DNA of 32,124 nucleotides from an uncultured Pelagibacteraceae bacterium (GTDB lineage: Bacteria; Pseudomonadota; Alphaproteobacteria; Pelagibacterales; Pelagibacteraceae). Made by a program: the position numbers and the translations under genes. The DNA is taken from positions 1 through 32,124 of the forward strand of contig CACOSU010000011.1 in the NCBI GenBank assembly GCA_902629935.1, in the 5' to 3' direction. Shown in pieces: positions 11,858 to 17,174 of the stretch. The notes under the pieces are model-generated. The model saw nothing but the letters and a program-made list of their open reading frames with translations. It did not search any database and had not been told where the DNA came from. The stretch's first letter is position 1. Each line of letters begins with the position of its first letter.

Positions 11858-11874
11858 TTTAGAATAATTATAAT
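11858..11874. promoter_or_regulatory. Irr/PerR-type operator upstream of irr
   Basis: TTTAGAATAATTATAAT is an imperfect palindrome. Its 15-base core TTAGAATAATTATAA differs at one position from the PerR box TTATAATnATTATAA, and its left half is identical to the Irr iron-control-element half site TTTAGAA (both consensus forms from memory). It ends 4 bases before the irr ATG, which suggests autoregulation, and it lies in the shared irr/fabA spacer. Almost the same 17-mer lies on the katG promoter. Confidence 0.65.
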
Positions 11875-11878
11875 TAAC

Positions 11879-12289
11879 ATGTCAATTTTAAACAAATATA
11901 TCATAAAATTGAGAAATTCCGGTTTAAGACCCACAAAACAGAGAATAAAAATATGTGAAGTTTTGTTCGAAACAGATAAAACTTTTCATTTTACAATTAA
12001 CGATCTTACAAAAAAAATTCATTTACAAACGGATAAAAAAATATCAGTTGCTACAGTTTATAACACTGTTCATGCTTTTGAAAAAAAAGGTTATTTAAAA
12101 CAAATACCAATTAACTCAAGTCAGACATATTTTGATACAAATATAACTGCACACCATCATTTTTACGATATAAAAGCTGGAAAGTTAATTGATCTTGACA
12201 ATAAAGATGTTGGACCAATCAATATTCAAAAATCAATTCCTGGTAAAAAAATAAAATCCGTTGAAGTTCTTGTTAAATTAGAAGATTAA
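11879..12289 (+). CDS. irr: Fur-superfamily regulator, Irr type
   Basis: DNA-binding regulator of the Fur/Irr/PerR superfamily. The 136-residue protein has the winged-helix domain ([16 protein letters not shown], then [19 protein letters not shown], residues 15-75) and the His motif AHHHFYD (HHH at 92-94). It lacks the two CxxC zinc motifs of classic Fur and PerR, having a single Cys26, which fits Irr. It also lacks the N-terminal Cys-Pro heme motif known from Bradyrhizobium Irr. Divergent placement from fabA-fabB-fabI is the conserved alphaproteobacterial irr location. There is no Shine-Dalgarno; an Irr/PerR-type box ends 4 bases before the ATG. katG follows 94 bases downstream with its own promoter. 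PerR-like peroxide sensing remains possible. Confidence 0.85.
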
Positions 12290-12319: not shown

Positions 12320-12348
12320 TTGACATTCCTTTTTAGAATTATTATAAA
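12320..12348 (+). promoter_or_regulatory. katG sigma70 promoter
   Basis: A consensus -35 TTGACA (12320-12325) is followed after exactly 17 bases by TATAAA (12343-12348, one mismatch to TATAAT). This is the best promoter match I found in the window. The predicted start is near 12355, giving a leader of about 30 bases with a good AAGGAG ribosome binding site at 12374-12379. The promoter is overlaid by the operator at 12332-12348, so strong but repressible transcription is expected. Confidence 0.8.
12332..12348. promoter_or_regulatory. Irr/PerR-type operator on the katG promoter
   Basis: TTTAGAATTATTATAAA covers the spacer and the whole -10 hexamer of the katG promoter. The core TTAGAATTATTATAA differs at one position from the PerR box TTATAATnATTATAA, and the 17-mer differs at one specified position from an Irr iron-control-element consensus TTTAGAAYNRTTCYAAA (both from memory). 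Binding here would block RNA polymerase. It is nearly the same as the operator before irr (11858-11874). Confidence 0.7.
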
Positions 12349-12383: not shown

Positions 12384-14621
12384 ATGAGTACTGAAAACTT
12401 TAAATCAAAATCTTTTAAGTCAAGTGAGCTAAGTAAATGTCCATTTACTGGAGCTGGTACTCCAGCCAAATTTACTGCAGGAAGAGGTCAAACAGCCAGA
12501 GATTTCTGGCCTAATAGTTTGAATTTAAAAATTCTTAGTCAGCATTCAAGTTTAACAAATCCTATGGATAAAAGTTTTAAGTACTCAAAAGAATTTAAAA
12601 AATTAAATTTTAAGTCACTTAAGAAAGATTTAAAAAAATTAATGACCAACTCTCAAGAGTGGTGGCCTGCGGATTATGGTCATTATGGACCATTATTTAT
12701 AAGATTAGCTTGGCATGCAGCAGGAACTTATAGAACGGGTGATGGAAGAGGTGGAGCTGGAACTGGAAATCAAAGATTTGCACCACTCAACTCATGGCCA
12801 GATAATGTTAATTTAGATAAGGCCAGACTTCTTTTATGGCCAATCAAAAAAAAATATGGAAAAAAAATATCTTGGGCAGATTTGTATATTTTAGTAGGAA
12901 ATGTAGCTCTAGAATCAATGGGCTTTAAAACTTTTGGATTCGGTGCTGGCAGAACAGATATTTGGGAGCCAGAGGATGATATTTATTGGGGTTCAGAAAA
13001 AGAGATGCTAGCTGTAAATAGATATAGTGGAAAAAGAGACTTAGAACAGCCTTTAGGAGCATCACACATGGGTCTAATTTATGTAAACCCACAAGGTCCT
13101 GATGCAAACCCAGATCCAAAACTTGCAGCTCATGATATTAGAGAAACTTTTGGTAGAATGGCTATGAATGATTACGAAACGGCTGCCCTAGTAGCTGGTG
13201 GACATACTTTTGGTAAATCACATGGTGCAGCTTCAGAAGATTTTAAAGGTCCTGATCCTGAAGGTTCAAAAATTCAAGATCAATCAACTGGTTGGAATAG
13301 CAGTTATAAATCAGGTAAAGGTGTTGACACTATTAGCAGTGGTATTGAGGGTGCCTGGACTCAAAACCCAACTAAATGGGATATGGGATATTTAGATTGT
13401 TTATACGATCATGAATGGGAGCTTACAAAAAGTCCTGCAGGCGCACATCAATGGACACCAAAGAAAAACGGACAAAAAATTAAAATGGTCCCTGATGCCC
13501 ATAATAAAGATGTGTTTCATCCTCCAATGATGCAGACAACAGACATTTCGATGAAAGTAGATCCAAGTTATGGACCGATAACAAAACATTTTCACGAAAA
13601 TCCAAAAGAATTTCATGATGCTTTTGCAAGAGCATGGTTTAAGTTGACTCATAGAGATATGGGGCCAAGAGTGTGTTATTTAGGAAGTGAAGTGCCTAAA
13701 GAGCAATTAATATGGCAAGATCCAATTGATAAACCAAATTATAAATTAAAATCAACAGACATAAAAAATTTAAAAAATATAATTTCAAAATCTAAAATAT
13801 CTATCTCAGACTTAGTTTCTACTGCATGGGCTTCAGCTTCAACTTTTAGAGGTTCGGATAAAAGAGGTGGTGCTAACGGTGCTAGAATTATGCTAGAGCC
13901 TCAAAAAAATTGGAAAGTAAATAATCCTAAAAAACTTAAAAAAATTTTAAAAACTTTAAGTAAAATTAAAAATAAATTTGATAATAAGAAAAAGAGTATA
14001 TCAATGGCTGATTTAATTGTATTAGCTGGCAATGTTGGCATTGAGATGGCAGCAAAAAAGGCTGGCCATAAAGTAAATGTTCCATTTTCTCCAGGACGGG
14101 GCGATGCAAGACAGGATCAGACAGAAATTCATTCATTTAATTTATTAGAGCCTCAAGCTGACGGTTTTAGAAATTATTTAAATGGAGGTGCTTCAATTGT
14201 ATCTGCAGAAGAAAAATTGTTAGACAAGGCTCAATTAATGGGGCTGTCTGCACCAGAAATGACTGTGCTTATAGGTGGAATGCGTGTCCTAGATACTAAT
14301 TATGATAATTCTAAAAGTGGTGTTTTCACAAAAAAACCTGGAGTACTTACAAACGATTACTTTGTAAACTTGTTAGATATGAATACTACTTGGAAGGAAG
14401 TTGATAGCTCTGAACAAACATTTATTGGTAAAGATAGAAAAACTGGAAAAAATAAATGGAAAGCAACAAGAGTAGATCTTATTTTTGGCTCAAATTCTCA
14501 ACTGAGGGCCTTAGCAGAAGTTTATGCCTATGAGGATTCAAAATCTAAATTTGTTAAGGACTTTATTTCTGCATGGGTCAAAGTTATGAATTCAGACAGA
14601 TTTGATTTGAAGTTAAACTAA
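12384..14621 (+). CDS. katG: Bifunctional catalase-peroxidase
   Basis: Heme enzyme that removes hydrogen peroxide. The 745-residue protein is full length with both the active N-terminal and the degenerate C-terminal peroxidase-like domains. Distal residues Arg107, Trp110 and His111 ([11 protein letters not shown]), proximal heme ligand His274 ([10 protein letters not shown]), and the Trp110-Tyr233-Met261 residues that form the covalent adduct needed for catalase activity are all present. There is no signal peptide, so it should be cytosolic. AAGGAG lies 5 bases before the ATG. A near-consensus promoter with an Irr/PerR-type operator precedes it, and a 2OG-oxygenase-like gene follows after 26 bases. 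Codon use looks like the neighbours, so recent transfer is not evident. Confidence 0.98.
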
Positions 14622-14647
14622 TCTTTTTAAAAAGAAAGATATCAATA

Positions 14648-15247
14648 ATGACAACTGTAAGTTTTGAAGATTTTTACAAAGTCCCAGATTTAAATTTTAA
14701 TATTTCTAGATTAAGACAGGACTTACAAAAAATACTAGAGCAAAAAAAATTTAAATCACCTGGAGTAACACATTTTGGGGCAATACCTGTTAATCAAATT
14801 CCAAATGACGAAAATTCTGTTAAAGGCAATAATATTAGAGGAAAATATTGGACTATAGCAGATGATACAGGCAAAGAGGTAGCTCGAGATATTGATATAG
14901 ATGAAAGCAAATATACTCAATTAGTTCCTGAGTTTGAAAAAACTTATTTTAAAGAAGTTTTTGAGGCATTGAGTTCAAGATTTAAGCTTGGAAGAGTAAG
15001 GCTTTTACTAAAAGAACCTAGATCCACTTTAAGTTGGCATAAAGATCCTGAGTGTAGGTTGCATGTACCAATTATAACCAACAAAGGTTGTTCTATGGTT
15101 ATAGAAAATGTTGCTAAACATTTACCCGCAGATGGTAATGTTTGGATAACAAACAATACAAAATATCATAATTTTTTTAATGGTGGTGAGCAAGCCAGAA
15201 TTCATCTTGTTGCTTGCGTGCTTGAGAGCCCTTTTAATAAAAAATAA
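14648..15247 (+). CDS. Aspartyl/asparaginyl beta-hydroxylase-like 2OG-Fe(II) oxygenase
   Basis: Predicted Fe(II)/2-oxoglutarate-dependent oxygenase of the Asp/Asn beta-hydroxylase-like cupin fold; its substrate is unknown. In this 199-residue protein I see the HxD facial-triad pair His131 and Asp133 (LSWHKDPECRLHVPI), the distal His174 (NTKYHNFFN) and a 2-oxoglutarate-binding candidate Arg184 (EQARIHLVA), in the order and spacing of that family. The N-terminal about 100 residues are not recognised. There is no signal peptide or membrane segment. It starts 26 bases after katG without a promoter of its own, so it is probably cotranscribed under the same operator. A link to iron or peroxide stress is inference. 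No member-specific gene symbol can be given. Confidence 0.7.
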   Translation: MTTVSFEDFYKVPDLNFNISRLRQDLQKILEQKKFKSPGVTHFGAIPVNQIPNDENSVKGNNIRGKYWTIADDTGKEVARDIDIDESKYTQLVPEFEKTYFKEVFEALSSRFKLGRVRLLLKEPRSTLSWHKDPECRLHVPIITNKGCSMVIENVAKHLPADGNVWITNNTKYHNFFNGGEQARIHLVACVLESPFNKK

Positions 15248-15279
15248 TTTTTTTATCTCAATTCATTAAAAAAAATATT

Positions 15280-15294
15280 TGATAATGATTACTA
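15280..15294. promoter_or_regulatory. Fur-like box upstream of the DUF2061-like gene
   Basis: TGATAATGATTACTA matches 12 of the 14 specified positions of the Fur 7-1-7 box TGATAATnATTATCA (from memory). A possible promoter, TTGATA (15279-15284) then CATTAT after 16 bases, would be overlapped by it; an alternative -10 TATAAA is at 15344-15349. It lies 73 bases before the DUF2061-like start. It could also serve a Mur-type manganese regulator. Confidence 0.55.
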
Positions 15295-15367
15295 TTAGCA
15301 CATTATTTTTTTGCTATTTATTAAACAATCTTTAATGATCAATTATAAATAAATTAAAATTTTAATT

Positions 15368-15610
15368 ATGCAACTATCAATAAATGTTTTTAAATATTTA
15401 GAAAATCTCTACAAAGAAAATAGAGGATCAATATTAAGAACAATAGTTTATACAATTGGACATTTTGCAATTGCCATAACTGTTTTAATGCTAATTGCAG
15501 ACGTTGCTTTTATGATTGCTTTAACAGATGCTATTGTCGAACCAATTGCCAACTCTGTTTGGTATTTTATTTTAGATAAATGGTGGGCAAGTAAAGTAAA
15601 ATCTACATAA
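15368..15610 (+). CDS. DUF2061-like small membrane protein
   Basis: An 80-residue protein with two hydrophobic segments (about 26-50 and 52-70) after a short polar N terminus, ending in a Trp-rich, basic tail (YFILDKWWASKV). The pattern RTIVYTIGHFAIAITVLMLI, then an acidic Glu before WYFIL and the terminal WW, resembles DUF2061 membrane proteins; the biochemical role of that family is unknown to me. There is no Shine-Dalgarno before the ATG. A Fur-like box stands upstream, and two more lie between it and the following Cys-rich gene, so it may be metal-responsive; that is inference. Confidence 0.65.
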   Translation: MQLSINVFKYLENLYKENRGSILRTIVYTIGHFAIAITVLMLIADVAFMIALTDAIVEPIANSVWYFILDKWWASKVKST

Positions 15611-15668
15611 GAAAAAAATTAAAATTTAAAAAGATCTTAATTAAAAAAATCTTATTAATTTAAGCGAG

Positions 15669-15683
15669 TGATAATCATTCGCA
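15669..15683. promoter_or_regulatory. Fur-like box 1 upstream of the Cys-rich gene
   Basis: TGATAATCATTCGCA matches 12 of the 14 specified positions of the Fur 7-1-7 box. The wider 19-mer GCGAGTGATAATCATTCGC (15664-15682) is an inverted repeat with 8 of 9 position pairs complementary. It lies exactly 30 bases before a second copy. Confidence 0.6.
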
Positions 15684-15698
15684 AAAAAAATATGTGAA

Positions 15699-15713
15699 TA
15701 GTAATCATTCTCA
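15699..15713. promoter_or_regulatory. Fur-like box 2 upstream of the Cys-rich gene
   Basis: TAGTAATCATTCTCA matches 11 of the 14 specified positions of the Fur 7-1-7 box and shares TAATCATTC with box 1. The 30-base centre-to-centre distance is close to three helical turns, so both would face the same side of the DNA. It lies 45 bases before the ATG of the 59-residue gene. I could not place a convincing -35/-10 pair here. Confidence 0.5.
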
Positions 15714-15758
15714 ATATTTTTTATTGAATTAACTTTTTTTATATTTCATTCTATTAGC

Positions 15759-15938
15759 ATGCAGATAGAAAATTATAGTTGCAAAAAATGTGGATTAACA
15801 ATTTCATCAACTTGTTCAAAGTGTGATAAAATTGTTGATATACAAGTTCTTGATGATGGTTGCATAGTCCAAAAAACAAAATGTTTAGACTGTGCTAATA
15901 CACCAGTAATTAAGGATGTTTGTGAACAAAAAAAATAG
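15759..15938 (+). CDS. Small Cys-rich putative metal-binding protein (59 residues)
   Basis: A short open frame, ATG at 15759 and TAG at 15936, giving a 59-residue product. It has eight cysteines: CxxC at 8/11, 19/22 and 42/45, plus Cys35 and Cys55, an arrangement typical of zinc-ribbon or other metal-knuckle proteins. It begins MQIENYSCKKCG. There is no signal peptide or membrane segment. There is no Shine-Dalgarno. Support for coding comes from the regular CxxC spacing, the fit to the space between its neighbours, and tandem Fur-like boxes just upstream. I do not recognise the family. It could bind zinc, or iron as in rubredoxin-like knuckles; metal storage or sensing is speculation. Confidence 0.7.
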   Translation: MQIENYSCKKCGLTISSTCSKCDKIVDIQVLDDGCIVQKTKCLDCANTPVIKDVCEQKK

Positions 15939-15978
15939 AAAGTTTTAATTAACTTAATGATGAATTGGTGGGTTTAAA

Positions 15979-16434
15979 TCAATTAAGACCCCATAAATTG
16001 TTGATTTTAACCCAACCCTCATACTCTTCAGCTATTATTTTACACCAAATATTTTCACATCTTTCTATTATTAGCATTCTGCCCTCTTTAATTTGTGCAA
16101 TTGGTTCTGCAAAAGATGTCGGTTTTTTGAATAATATTTTATCTTTAGTAGCTATAACTGAATTACTTTTTTTCAATTGAGAAATATGTATCCAACCACT
16201 ATTATTTTTAAAATCAATAATTCTTCTAAAATTTTCTTTTTTATCAATTTGTTTTAGAGGAAGGTTGATTTTTTTGTAAACATATTTGATATCCGACTCA
16301 AAGCTCGGTCCATATCGGACATTTACTTTATTTTTTTTAAGAGAGACAAATATTTCGTTAGCAAAAGAATTATGTATAAAAAAAAATAAAAAGAAAATTG
16401 TATAAATTTTTTTTGTTATTATTTGCATTTGCAC
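15979..16434 (-). CDS. Secreted bacterial SH3-domain protein
   Basis: A 151-residue protein with an N-terminal signal peptide (basic start, hydrophobic core 11-20, likely cleavage after SFA at residue 25), followed by two SH3-like repeats: VNVRYGPSFESDIKYV ... GWIHISQL and ILFKKPTSFAEPIAQI ... EGWVKINNLWG. Such domains bind cell-wall or other ligands in the periplasm; the actual partner is unknown. It is the last gene of the ubiE-to-SH3 operon. The ATG at 16434 overlaps the preceding moeB/thiF-like gene by 16 bases; Met3 (16428) is an alternative start. Confidence 0.8.
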   Translation of the reverse strand: MQMQIITKKIYTIFFLFFFIHNSFANEIFVSLKKNKVNVRYGPSFESDIKYVYKKINLPLKQIDKKENFRRIIDFKNNSGWIHISQLKKSNSVIATKDKILFKKPTSFAEPIAQIKEGRMLIIERCENIWCKIIAEEYEGWVKINNLWGLN

Positions 16435-17174
16435 TTTTTTCTTTTATTTATTTTTGCTTTTCTGAAATTTAAATTTAATAAATCTAAGATTAAAATAAAT
16501 CCATCTAAATTTTGTCCTACATTTAATATTTTTTTTAAAATTTCATTAGCTTGTAATGTGCCTACAATTCCAGCTACAGTTCCTAAAATTCCCTCAAATT
16601 CGCGATTTAATATTTCATCAGTAATTTTGTCTTCTTGATAAAAACATCTTAAACAAGGATTTTTTTTATTGGTGAAATTTAAAGTAAAAATATGTCCATC
16701 GAATTTACTTATAGCACCTGTAACTAGAAATTTTTTATATTTTAGACTTAAATCATTTATTAAAAATTTACTTTCAAAGTTATCAGTACCGTCAACAATA
16801 TAATCATAATTTTTAATAATCTCTTCAAATGCACTTTTATTTAATTTTAAATTAAAAATATTTATTTTTGTCTTCGAATTAATTTTTTTTAATTTTTTTT
16901 TTGCTATCTTTACTTTTGGTTTCTTTATATCTTTTTCATTATAAAGGGTTTGTCTATGAATATTAGAGAGACTTACTGAGTCATGATCTATAATTCCAAG
17001 CGTACCAATTCCAGCTCGTGTTAAAAATTCGGCTACTGGACAACCGAGACCACCCATTCCAATTATTAAAACTTTTGAGTTGAGAATTTTTTTTTGTCCT
17101 AACGGACCTATGTTTTTTAAAATTATTTGCCTCGAAAATTTATCTATTTCTTTTTTGCTTAAATCTTTACTCAT
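16419..17174 (-). CDS. E1-like adenylyltransferase, MoeB/ThiF/HesA family
   Basis: ATP-dependent activator of the C-terminal glycine of a ubiquitin-like sulfur carrier (MoaD or ThiS type). The 251-residue protein has the nucleotide loop GMGGLGCP (39-46), Arg74 (NIHRQ), and Asp130 (DGTDNFES). A Cys pair Cys174/Cys177 (PCLRC) is matched at the very C terminus by Cys248/Cys250, i.e. CxC rather than the usual CxxC of the zinc site. No rhodanese domain is fused, and no carrier protein or moa/thi gene is nearby, so MoeB versus ThiF cannot be decided. It starts inside the dut stop (ATGA). Confidence 0.88.
   Translation of the reverse strand: MSKDLSKKEIDKFSRQIILKNIGPLGQKKILNSKVLIIGMGGLGCPVAEFLTRAGIGTLGIIDHDSVSLSNIHRQTLYNEKDIKKPKVKIAKKKLKKINSKTKINIFNLKLNKSAFEEIIKNYDYIVDGTDNFESKFLINDLSLKYKKFLVTGAISKFDGHIFTLNFTNKKNPCLRCFYQEDKITDEILNREFEGILGTVAGIVGTLQANEILKKILNVGQNLDGFILILDLLNLNFRKAKINKRKKCKCK

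Follow-up and report, generated by a model that had tools for sequence, protein, structure and literature searches.

Three Fur-like boxes lie close together in the genome of a SAR11 bacterium, a member of a group whose cells are some of the most abundant in the sea. They raise the question of which gene or genes they serve and in which direction they act when the supply of iron changes. The DNA analysed, hereafter the window, is the 32,124-bp contig C11 of a 1.2 Mb draft genome of an uncultured Pelagibacteraceae bacterium (37 contigs, 90% complete). A preliminary description of this DNA had treated the boxes as one group, set around a gene for a DUF2061 protein and a small Cys-rich gene, with sites of an Irr type nearby. 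According to PMC2864753, genes for both Fur and Irr, but none for ferritin or siderophore proteins, are present in Ca. P. ubique. PMC3090418 describes an earlier search of HTCC1062 that returned no classical Fur box. The answer that we reach here, with a probability of roughly 0.7 for the reading as a whole, is that two of the boxes form a tandem Fur operator at the Cys-rich gene, that this operator would repress the gene in iron-replete cells, and that the product is probably a small metal-binding protein.

Two operator types in one gene neighbourhood

Between 9.3 and 16.4 kb, the window holds fabI, fabB and fabA on the minus strand, followed on the plus strand by five genes ending in the 59-aa Cys-rich gene, which we call the mini-gene; the next gene, on the minus strand, encodes an SH3-domain protein. 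The plus-strand genes are, in order:

11879-12289, plus strand: irr-like gene for a Fur-family regulator (PF01475, 78 bits), preceded by TTAGAATAATTATAA at 11859
12384-14621, plus strand: katG, catalase-peroxidase (TIGR00198, 1121 bits), preceded by TTAGAATTATTATAA at 12333
14648-15247, plus strand: aspartyl/asparaginyl beta-hydroxylase-like gene (PF05118, E=8.6e-9), upstream of DUF2061
15368-15610, plus strand: DUF2061 gene, small membrane protein of 80 aa (PF09834, 24.6 bits, over the cut-off of 23.1)
15759-15938, plus strand: mini-gene, 59 aa with 8 invariant Cys, with orthologues in relatives and under purifying selection

The arrangement fabB-fabA / irr-katG-hydroxylase-DUF2061 is kept in 12/12 relatives, which had been picked for having DUF2061 or the mini-gene, and the hydroxylase gene adjoins DUF2061 in all 12.

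The Irr-type sites reported earlier are present as TTAGAATAATTATAA at 11859-11873 and TTAGAATTATTATAA at 12333-12347. The consensus half site is TTAGAAT for Irr and ATTATAA for PerR, and the two boxes look half Irr-type and half PerR-type. Boxes resembling TTAGAATnATTATAA precede irr in 10/12 and katG in 12/12 same-order relatives (counts without a chance control), and among the Fur-family models of NCBIfam the regulator encoded in the window is best matched by IrrA, at 120.4 bits, under the cut-off of 150. This pattern suggests that the Irr-like protein controls its own gene and katG. The claim that two Fur-family operator types occur within 4 kb is borne out, and this arrangement is conserved.

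On a recount, the three Fur-like boxes show the matches to the 7-1-7 consensus that had been claimed for them, namely 12/14 at 15280-15294, 12/14 at 15669-15683 and 11/14 at 15699-15713, the last two lying exactly 30 bp apart. Markov simulations of the window give a chance expectation per 32 kb of 0.8-1.6 matches at 12/14 and 9-11 at 11/14, and the observed numbers in the 32 kb window are 3 and 14, respectively; by consensus counting alone, the three boxes are not significant. These counts, which are near expectation, are what speaks for regarding the boxes as chance AT-rich matches without function. Since 7-1-7 counting cannot separate the boxes from chance, it was replaced by a matrix built from relatives, symmetric and 21 bp long, which was trained on 64 sites in 32 non-redundant upstream regions of the mini-gene. 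The window was scored with its own region left out of the matrix, and its two nearest relatives were likewise outside the training set. The three boxes are the top three sites of the 32 kb window under this matrix, and the fourth-best site scores 10.2 bits:

15280-15300: predicted third Fur operator, before DUF2061 (23.8 bits, the best site of the window)
15663-15683: predicted distal Fur operator of the mini-gene (22.5 bits; centre exactly 30 bp upstream of that of the proximal one)
15693-15713: predicted proximal Fur operator of the mini-gene (23.7 bits; centre at 15703, 56 bp before the ATG)

The scoring confirms the boxes, at the level of sequence, as real Fur-type operators. The positions of the earlier matches stand, but the frame of the first needs adjustment: its centre is 15290 and not 15287, a shift of 3 bp. 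Each of the three boxes also extends over more bases than had been given. The near-empty background of the matrix, together with the conservation of the boxes and their co-occurrence with the mini-gene described below, makes a chance origin scarcely credible; it is already contradicted for the pair, and for the 15280 box the support comes from the window and two related loci only.

The operator pair and the mini-gene

Comparison with relatives separates what the preliminary description had joined in one group. Of 61 genomes searched for DUF2061, 14 have it, and in the scanned flanks of these DUF2061 loci boxes are found in 7/7 with the mini-gene and in 0/7 without it. The same division appears in 12 longer stretches that keep this gene order, with the box pair in 10/10 that have the mini-gene and in neither of the two that lack it. 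Furthermore, the mini-gene is found in about seven gene neighbourhoods, and the boxes accompany it there too. By ORF reading, its alternative neighbours are a YjbQ-like gene with a photolyase gene, an SDR gene, dapB with dnaJ, and others; one such neighbourhood (L049) differs from that of the window on the upstream side only. The pair, in other words, tracks the mini-gene.

A matrix scan detects at least one box in 103/103 upstream regions of the mini-gene and two in 102/103, in a set that is redundant, with duplicates between two collections, and that includes the 32 training regions. Leave-one-out scoring of the 32 non-redundant regions gives one box in 32/32 and two in 31/32, with scores from 13.1 to 29.0 bits. 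The geometry is equally regular: the centre of the proximal box falls at -54 to -57 from the ATG in 102/103 upstream regions, and the two boxes nearest the gene are spaced by 30-31 bp in 93 of the 103 regions, by 50-51 bp in 4 and by 59-61 bp in 5. The exceptions are L059, with a single box, and L065, where the nearest box is at -76. The comparison supports the view that the pair at 15663-15713 serves, as a conserved Fur operator, the mini-gene and not DUF2061.

The box at 15280 behaves differently. A scan of named contigs returned 303 stretches encoding relatives of the mini-gene, of which the best 80, kept at up to 6.2 kb each, are all from Pelagibacteraceae or Pelagibacterales. Within these best 80 of 303 loci, the only sites of at least 11 bits lying more than 200 bp from the start of the mini-gene are homologues of the 15280 box. 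They occur in two loci (L073 and L074), both of the window's clade, and sit there in an intergenic stretch of ~120 bp. In 77 of the remaining 78 named loci, there is no gap between the hydroxylase gene and DUF2061, which are directly adjacent or overlap; in the sole other one (L112), DUF2061 was not recognised. On the evidence of the window and the two related loci, the 15280 box is a clade-specific extra, which may have put DUF2061 under Fur control in that clade alone.

DUF2061 was also considered as the common target of the boxes, and was dropped on two counts: 0/7 loci without the mini-gene have boxes, and the 15280 box recurs in 2/80 named loci. As a separate observation, 12 longer stretches of other genomes contain, at the same limits of 11 bits and 200 bp from the start of the mini-gene, one further site, of 12.0 bits, before katG in G034 (L244:3695); it is absent in the other 11.

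Fur regulon, promoter and direction of control

A search for a second Fur-family gene, which had been proposed earlier as a check, finds a strong Fur on contig C22 (PF01475, 132 bits), which among NCBIfam models comes closest to that of the ferric uptake regulator, at 99.7 bits and below the cut-off of 146. A Fur gene is present and the pair is conserved, these being the two points on which the preliminary description had let its claim stand or fall. A third Fur-family gene, which is Zur-like, lies on C8 and adjoins genes for an ABC-3 type transporter. Of 23 other SAR11 genomes that carry the mini-gene, 20 give a PF01475 match of more than 120 bits; the three without a strong Fur match (G008, G069 and G075) are 75-81% complete.

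The whole genome was searched for the 21-bp consensus with up to three mismatches, and the sites found were then scored with the matrix. With at most one mismatch, there are only two sites before sfu, which encodes a ferric-iron ABC transporter, one at the Fe-S operon suf, and the box at 15280. The sites with two mismatches are the other two boxes of the window and three more at -3.8 to 10.2 bits, and the 32 sites with three mismatches all score 15.8 bits or less. Thus, within three mismatches, the only sites above 20 bits in the genome are the three boxes of the window, the two before sfu and the one at suf. As to the lesser sites, the best with three mismatches (C15:9976, 15.8 bits) is in a 2.1-kb stretch with a single ORF of at least 60 aa, which ends ~200 bp before the site, one of 11.1 bits (C5:22516) directly follows the end of an ORF, and one of 12.7 bits (C22:3517) is within an ORF.

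The same operator recurs at sfu and suf in relatives. We examined sfuA loci in 30 of 50 matching genomes and suf loci in 30 of 43, and the matrix trained on the mini-gene (at least 8 bits) detects a box before sfuA in 29/30, the one miss (L205) being a locus where the upstream window fell inside coding sequence. At suf, it detects a box upstream of the Rrf2/IscR-like regulator in 23/24 loci of the same genus, about 120-140 bp before the ATG of the regulator gene, after which comes SufB; at the same threshold, 0/6 suf regulator loci of another family carry a Fur box. The iron-binding identity of the sfu protein rests on its similarity to ferric-iron-binding proteins of solved structure (best E=3.6e-88); NCBIfam gives it no name, its best match there being a phosphonate-binding protein below the cut-off. 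In Ca. P. ubique, iron limitation induces both operons, sfu and suf, which together account for two thirds of the transcripts that it raises, as PMC2864753 shows (Table 1 and the accompanying text). The comparison supports the proposal that the mini-gene, sfu and suf make up most of the recognisable Fur regulon in this SAR11 draft genome.

Some further features of these loci deserve to be recorded. The centres of the Fur boxes before sfuA are 22 bp apart in 23/30 loci (L178-L207), many of which also show TGCGACA just upstream. In the suf loci (L208-L231), a palindrome like TTGACTAnTTTAGTCAGG, which we take to resemble an IscR type-1 site, recurs before the gene of the IscR-like regulator. One genome of the same genus, G012, which is 100% complete in one contig, has no mini-gene and no Fur box at suf (L217), and has kept the box at sfu (L203).

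Fur and Mur are close relatives in Alphaproteobacteria, and this relationship is one reason to consider that the regulator senses manganese or zinc, as a Mur or Zur would, and not iron; another is that in one genome (G084, at L049) ORF reading places the mini-gene after a putative manganese transporter gene. However, the same matrix marks an iron uptake operon (sfu) and an Fe-S operon (suf), and C8, the contig of the Zur-like gene, is without any site of two or fewer mismatches. Because the matrix finds the sfu and suf sites in relatives, control by manganese is not needed to account for the boxes, and we regard a metal other than iron as very unlikely.

The direction of control depends on where the promoter of the mini-gene lies, and the upstream regions point to the following elements:

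15724-15729, plus strand: TTGAAT, the -35-like hexamer of the promoter predicted for the mini-gene; its first base is 21 bp downstream of the centre of the proximal box
15747-15752, plus strand: weak -10-like element CATTCT, matching TATAAT at 3 of 6 positions and placed by comparison with relatives

In 102/103 upstream regions, the motif TTGWW has its first base between -33 and -37 relative to the ATG, against a background of 0.7% per position with six positions looked at. In 23 orthologues, there is an A at -11 in 22 and a T at -7 in 23; the match of the window itself to a -10 is poor at this place. A Shine-Dalgarno (SD)-like 4-mer within 20 nt of the ATG is found in 0/103 leaders of the mini-gene and in 17/23 sfuA leaders tested (23 of the 30 loci), an absence that is only suggestive because the irr, hydroxylase and DUF2061 genes of the window are likewise without one. 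From the conserved -35 and -10 positions and the lack of SD-like 4-mers, we predict that the mRNA of the mini-gene is leaderless, with the operators just upstream of the -35. A scan for RNA families at 14600-16500 gave none at E<=0.5.

The promoter could also be imagined within the operators: the distal box would supply a -35 (TTCGCA/TTCTCA) and the proximal box a -10 (nATAAT), with 16 bp between them. The sequences of the boxes permit this placement, which would itself explain why the boxes are 30 bp apart and would make the repression an ordinary steric one. It is impossible in the regions with a spacing of 59-61 bp (5 of 103) or 50-51 bp (4) or with a single box (1), the downstream TTGWW is kept in 102/103 regardless, and the scarcity of SD-like 4-mers relative to sfuA fits the leaderless start. 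We consider an embedded promoter rather improbable.

With the predicted promoter, the boxes lie upstream of the -35 and not over it, an arrangement that is unusual for plain repression. Fur might instead activate the mini-gene when iron is plentiful, by way of two dimers on the same face, centred about 56 and 86 bp before the start, that either touch RNA polymerase or push a silencer aside. The near-fixed place of the proximal box upstream of the promoter and the spacings close to whole multiples of 10 bp (30/31, 50/51 and 59-61) would suit activation, as would the Fur-activated genes of Neisseria and Vibrio, whose boxes are found some 90-100 bp ahead of the start, whereas boxes of Fur-repressed genes overlap the polymerase site (according to a review, PMC3788343). 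On the other hand, sfu and suf, the sister targets marked by the same matrix, are those induced by iron limitation in the Ca. P. ubique work cited above (PMC2864753). The suf box is also far upstream, at about -120 from the ATG of the suf regulator, so that position alone does not give the direction. Moreover, most known Fur sites repress, and activation appears unlikely to us. The spacings near whole helical turns may reflect cooperative binding on one face, which fits repression or activation alike. A leaderless promoter with helically phased tandem Fur operators could even constitute, unlike sfu, an activating or looping switch of a dedicated SAR11 iron-response protein, a minority view that we think unlikely.

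Repression by iron-loaded Fur, the reading that we prefer, would proceed as follows. The pair at 15663-15713 would be a tandem operator controlling one gene, the mini-gene at 15759-15938. Fe-loaded Fur dimers would bind the two palindromes of 19-21 bp just upstream of the -35, where both probably face the same side of the helix, and would most likely close the promoter when iron is plentiful, and iron shortage would allow the mini-protein to be made from a leaderless mRNA. The product would then be a cytosolic, zinc-ribbon-like metal-binding protein that may aid metal or Fe-S handling during the shortage, which is the weakest step of the scheme.

The mini-protein and known iron-response systems

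Orthologues of the mini-gene are found in 23/101 genomes searched, the genome of the window included, and four further matches belong to a divergent family. An alignment of 20 mini-protein sequences has 26 invariant columns, among them all 8 Cys, and pN/pS relative to the window is 0-0.34 in 13 pairs, with synonymous sites partly saturated; the gene is under purifying selection. From the cysteine pattern, and as there is no obvious signal sequence, we infer a cytosolic, metal-binding protein. No family model matches it above the cut-off; the zinc ribbon DZR (PF12773) gives 18.7 bits, below its cut-off of 27.3, and is to be read as a resemblance only. AlphaFold2 models are poor (pLDDT 59 and 64), a Foldseek search of the PDB returned nothing at E<=0.001, and the sequence itself compared with solved structures gave best matches of E>=0.28 only. 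The protein is absent from phage records at E<=0.01, and from viral contigs.

Outside SAR11, a search of 385 genomes at the level of the class recovers an orthologue in only two genomes of one other family (G359 and G437, E about 1e-22). Such Fur boxes are missing upstream of both (-7.1 and -5.7 bits), and their Fur-family matches are weak, at best 51-53 bits. These two genomes are without the boxes but also without a strong Fur, and they limit the reading to SAR11 without contradicting it. The upstream regions of these other-family orthologues (L154 and L155) have a common, different element, roughly TTTTTAGGAATnnATTnCATTnTTCATC.

The divergent family, with the pattern YxCxxCGMxVNATC...KIKSPxCCGxDM, is like the mini-protein over about residues 3-46, with the CxxC..CxxC half in common and 30-36% identity in 9 members, and unlike it in the C-terminal half and in the order of the cysteines. 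No Fur boxes are seen upstream of the 10 members checked (best scores -15.6 to 0.4 bits), from which L161, a weak match inside a 356-aa frame, was excluded. Members of this CxxCGMxVNATCxKC...KIKSPxCCGxDM type (L069-L072, L156-L160 and L162) come from several families of the class; the one member tested matches no family model over the cut-off, and the family is not seen in plasmids at E<=0.001.

The sections consulted of PMC4771312, PMC3090418 and PMC2864753 make no mention of the mini-gene, and a search of a limited literature collection returned no small Cys-rich protein linked with SAR11 and iron and no zinc ribbon linked with Pelagibacter and iron limitation. The recognisable Fur sites of this 90%-complete draft are those of sfu, suf, the mini-gene and, locally, DUF2061, and the 21-bp motif offers a usable Fur matrix for SAR11. 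The mini-gene has the same operator as genes of iron uptake and of Fe-S assembly, and its small, uncharacterised product is likely to be a part of the answer to iron scarcity; the gene is a candidate iron-stress marker alongside sfuC, and the pair points to an unstudied part of the small iron-shortage response of SAR11.

Small Fur-regulated proteins have parallels elsewhere. Bfd, the bacterioferritin-associated ferredoxin, is tiny, Cys-rich and Fur-controlled in other bacteria, and the mini-protein is like it in these respects. The cysteine pattern of Bfd is unlike that of the mini-protein, with its 8 Cys largely in CxxC pairs, and the BFD domain is not among the Pfam matches of the mini-protein at E<=1. 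FbpA, FbpB and FbpC of Bacillus are small Fur-regulated proteins of the iron-sparing response, like the mini-protein by description in size and probable control, and they are basic. The closest system is the Fur regulon of SAR11 itself (sfu, suf and FTR1), where Fur boxes, when found, precede components of Fe3+ ABC transporters and FTR1, as reported by Hogle et al. 2016 (PMC4771312). The mini-gene has the same operator, a 7-1-7/19-bp palindrome, but differs in that it does not encode a transporter, that the spacing of its boxes is mostly 30 bp against the 22 bp usual at sfu, and that these boxes lie upstream of the predicted -35 of a leaderless-looking gene.
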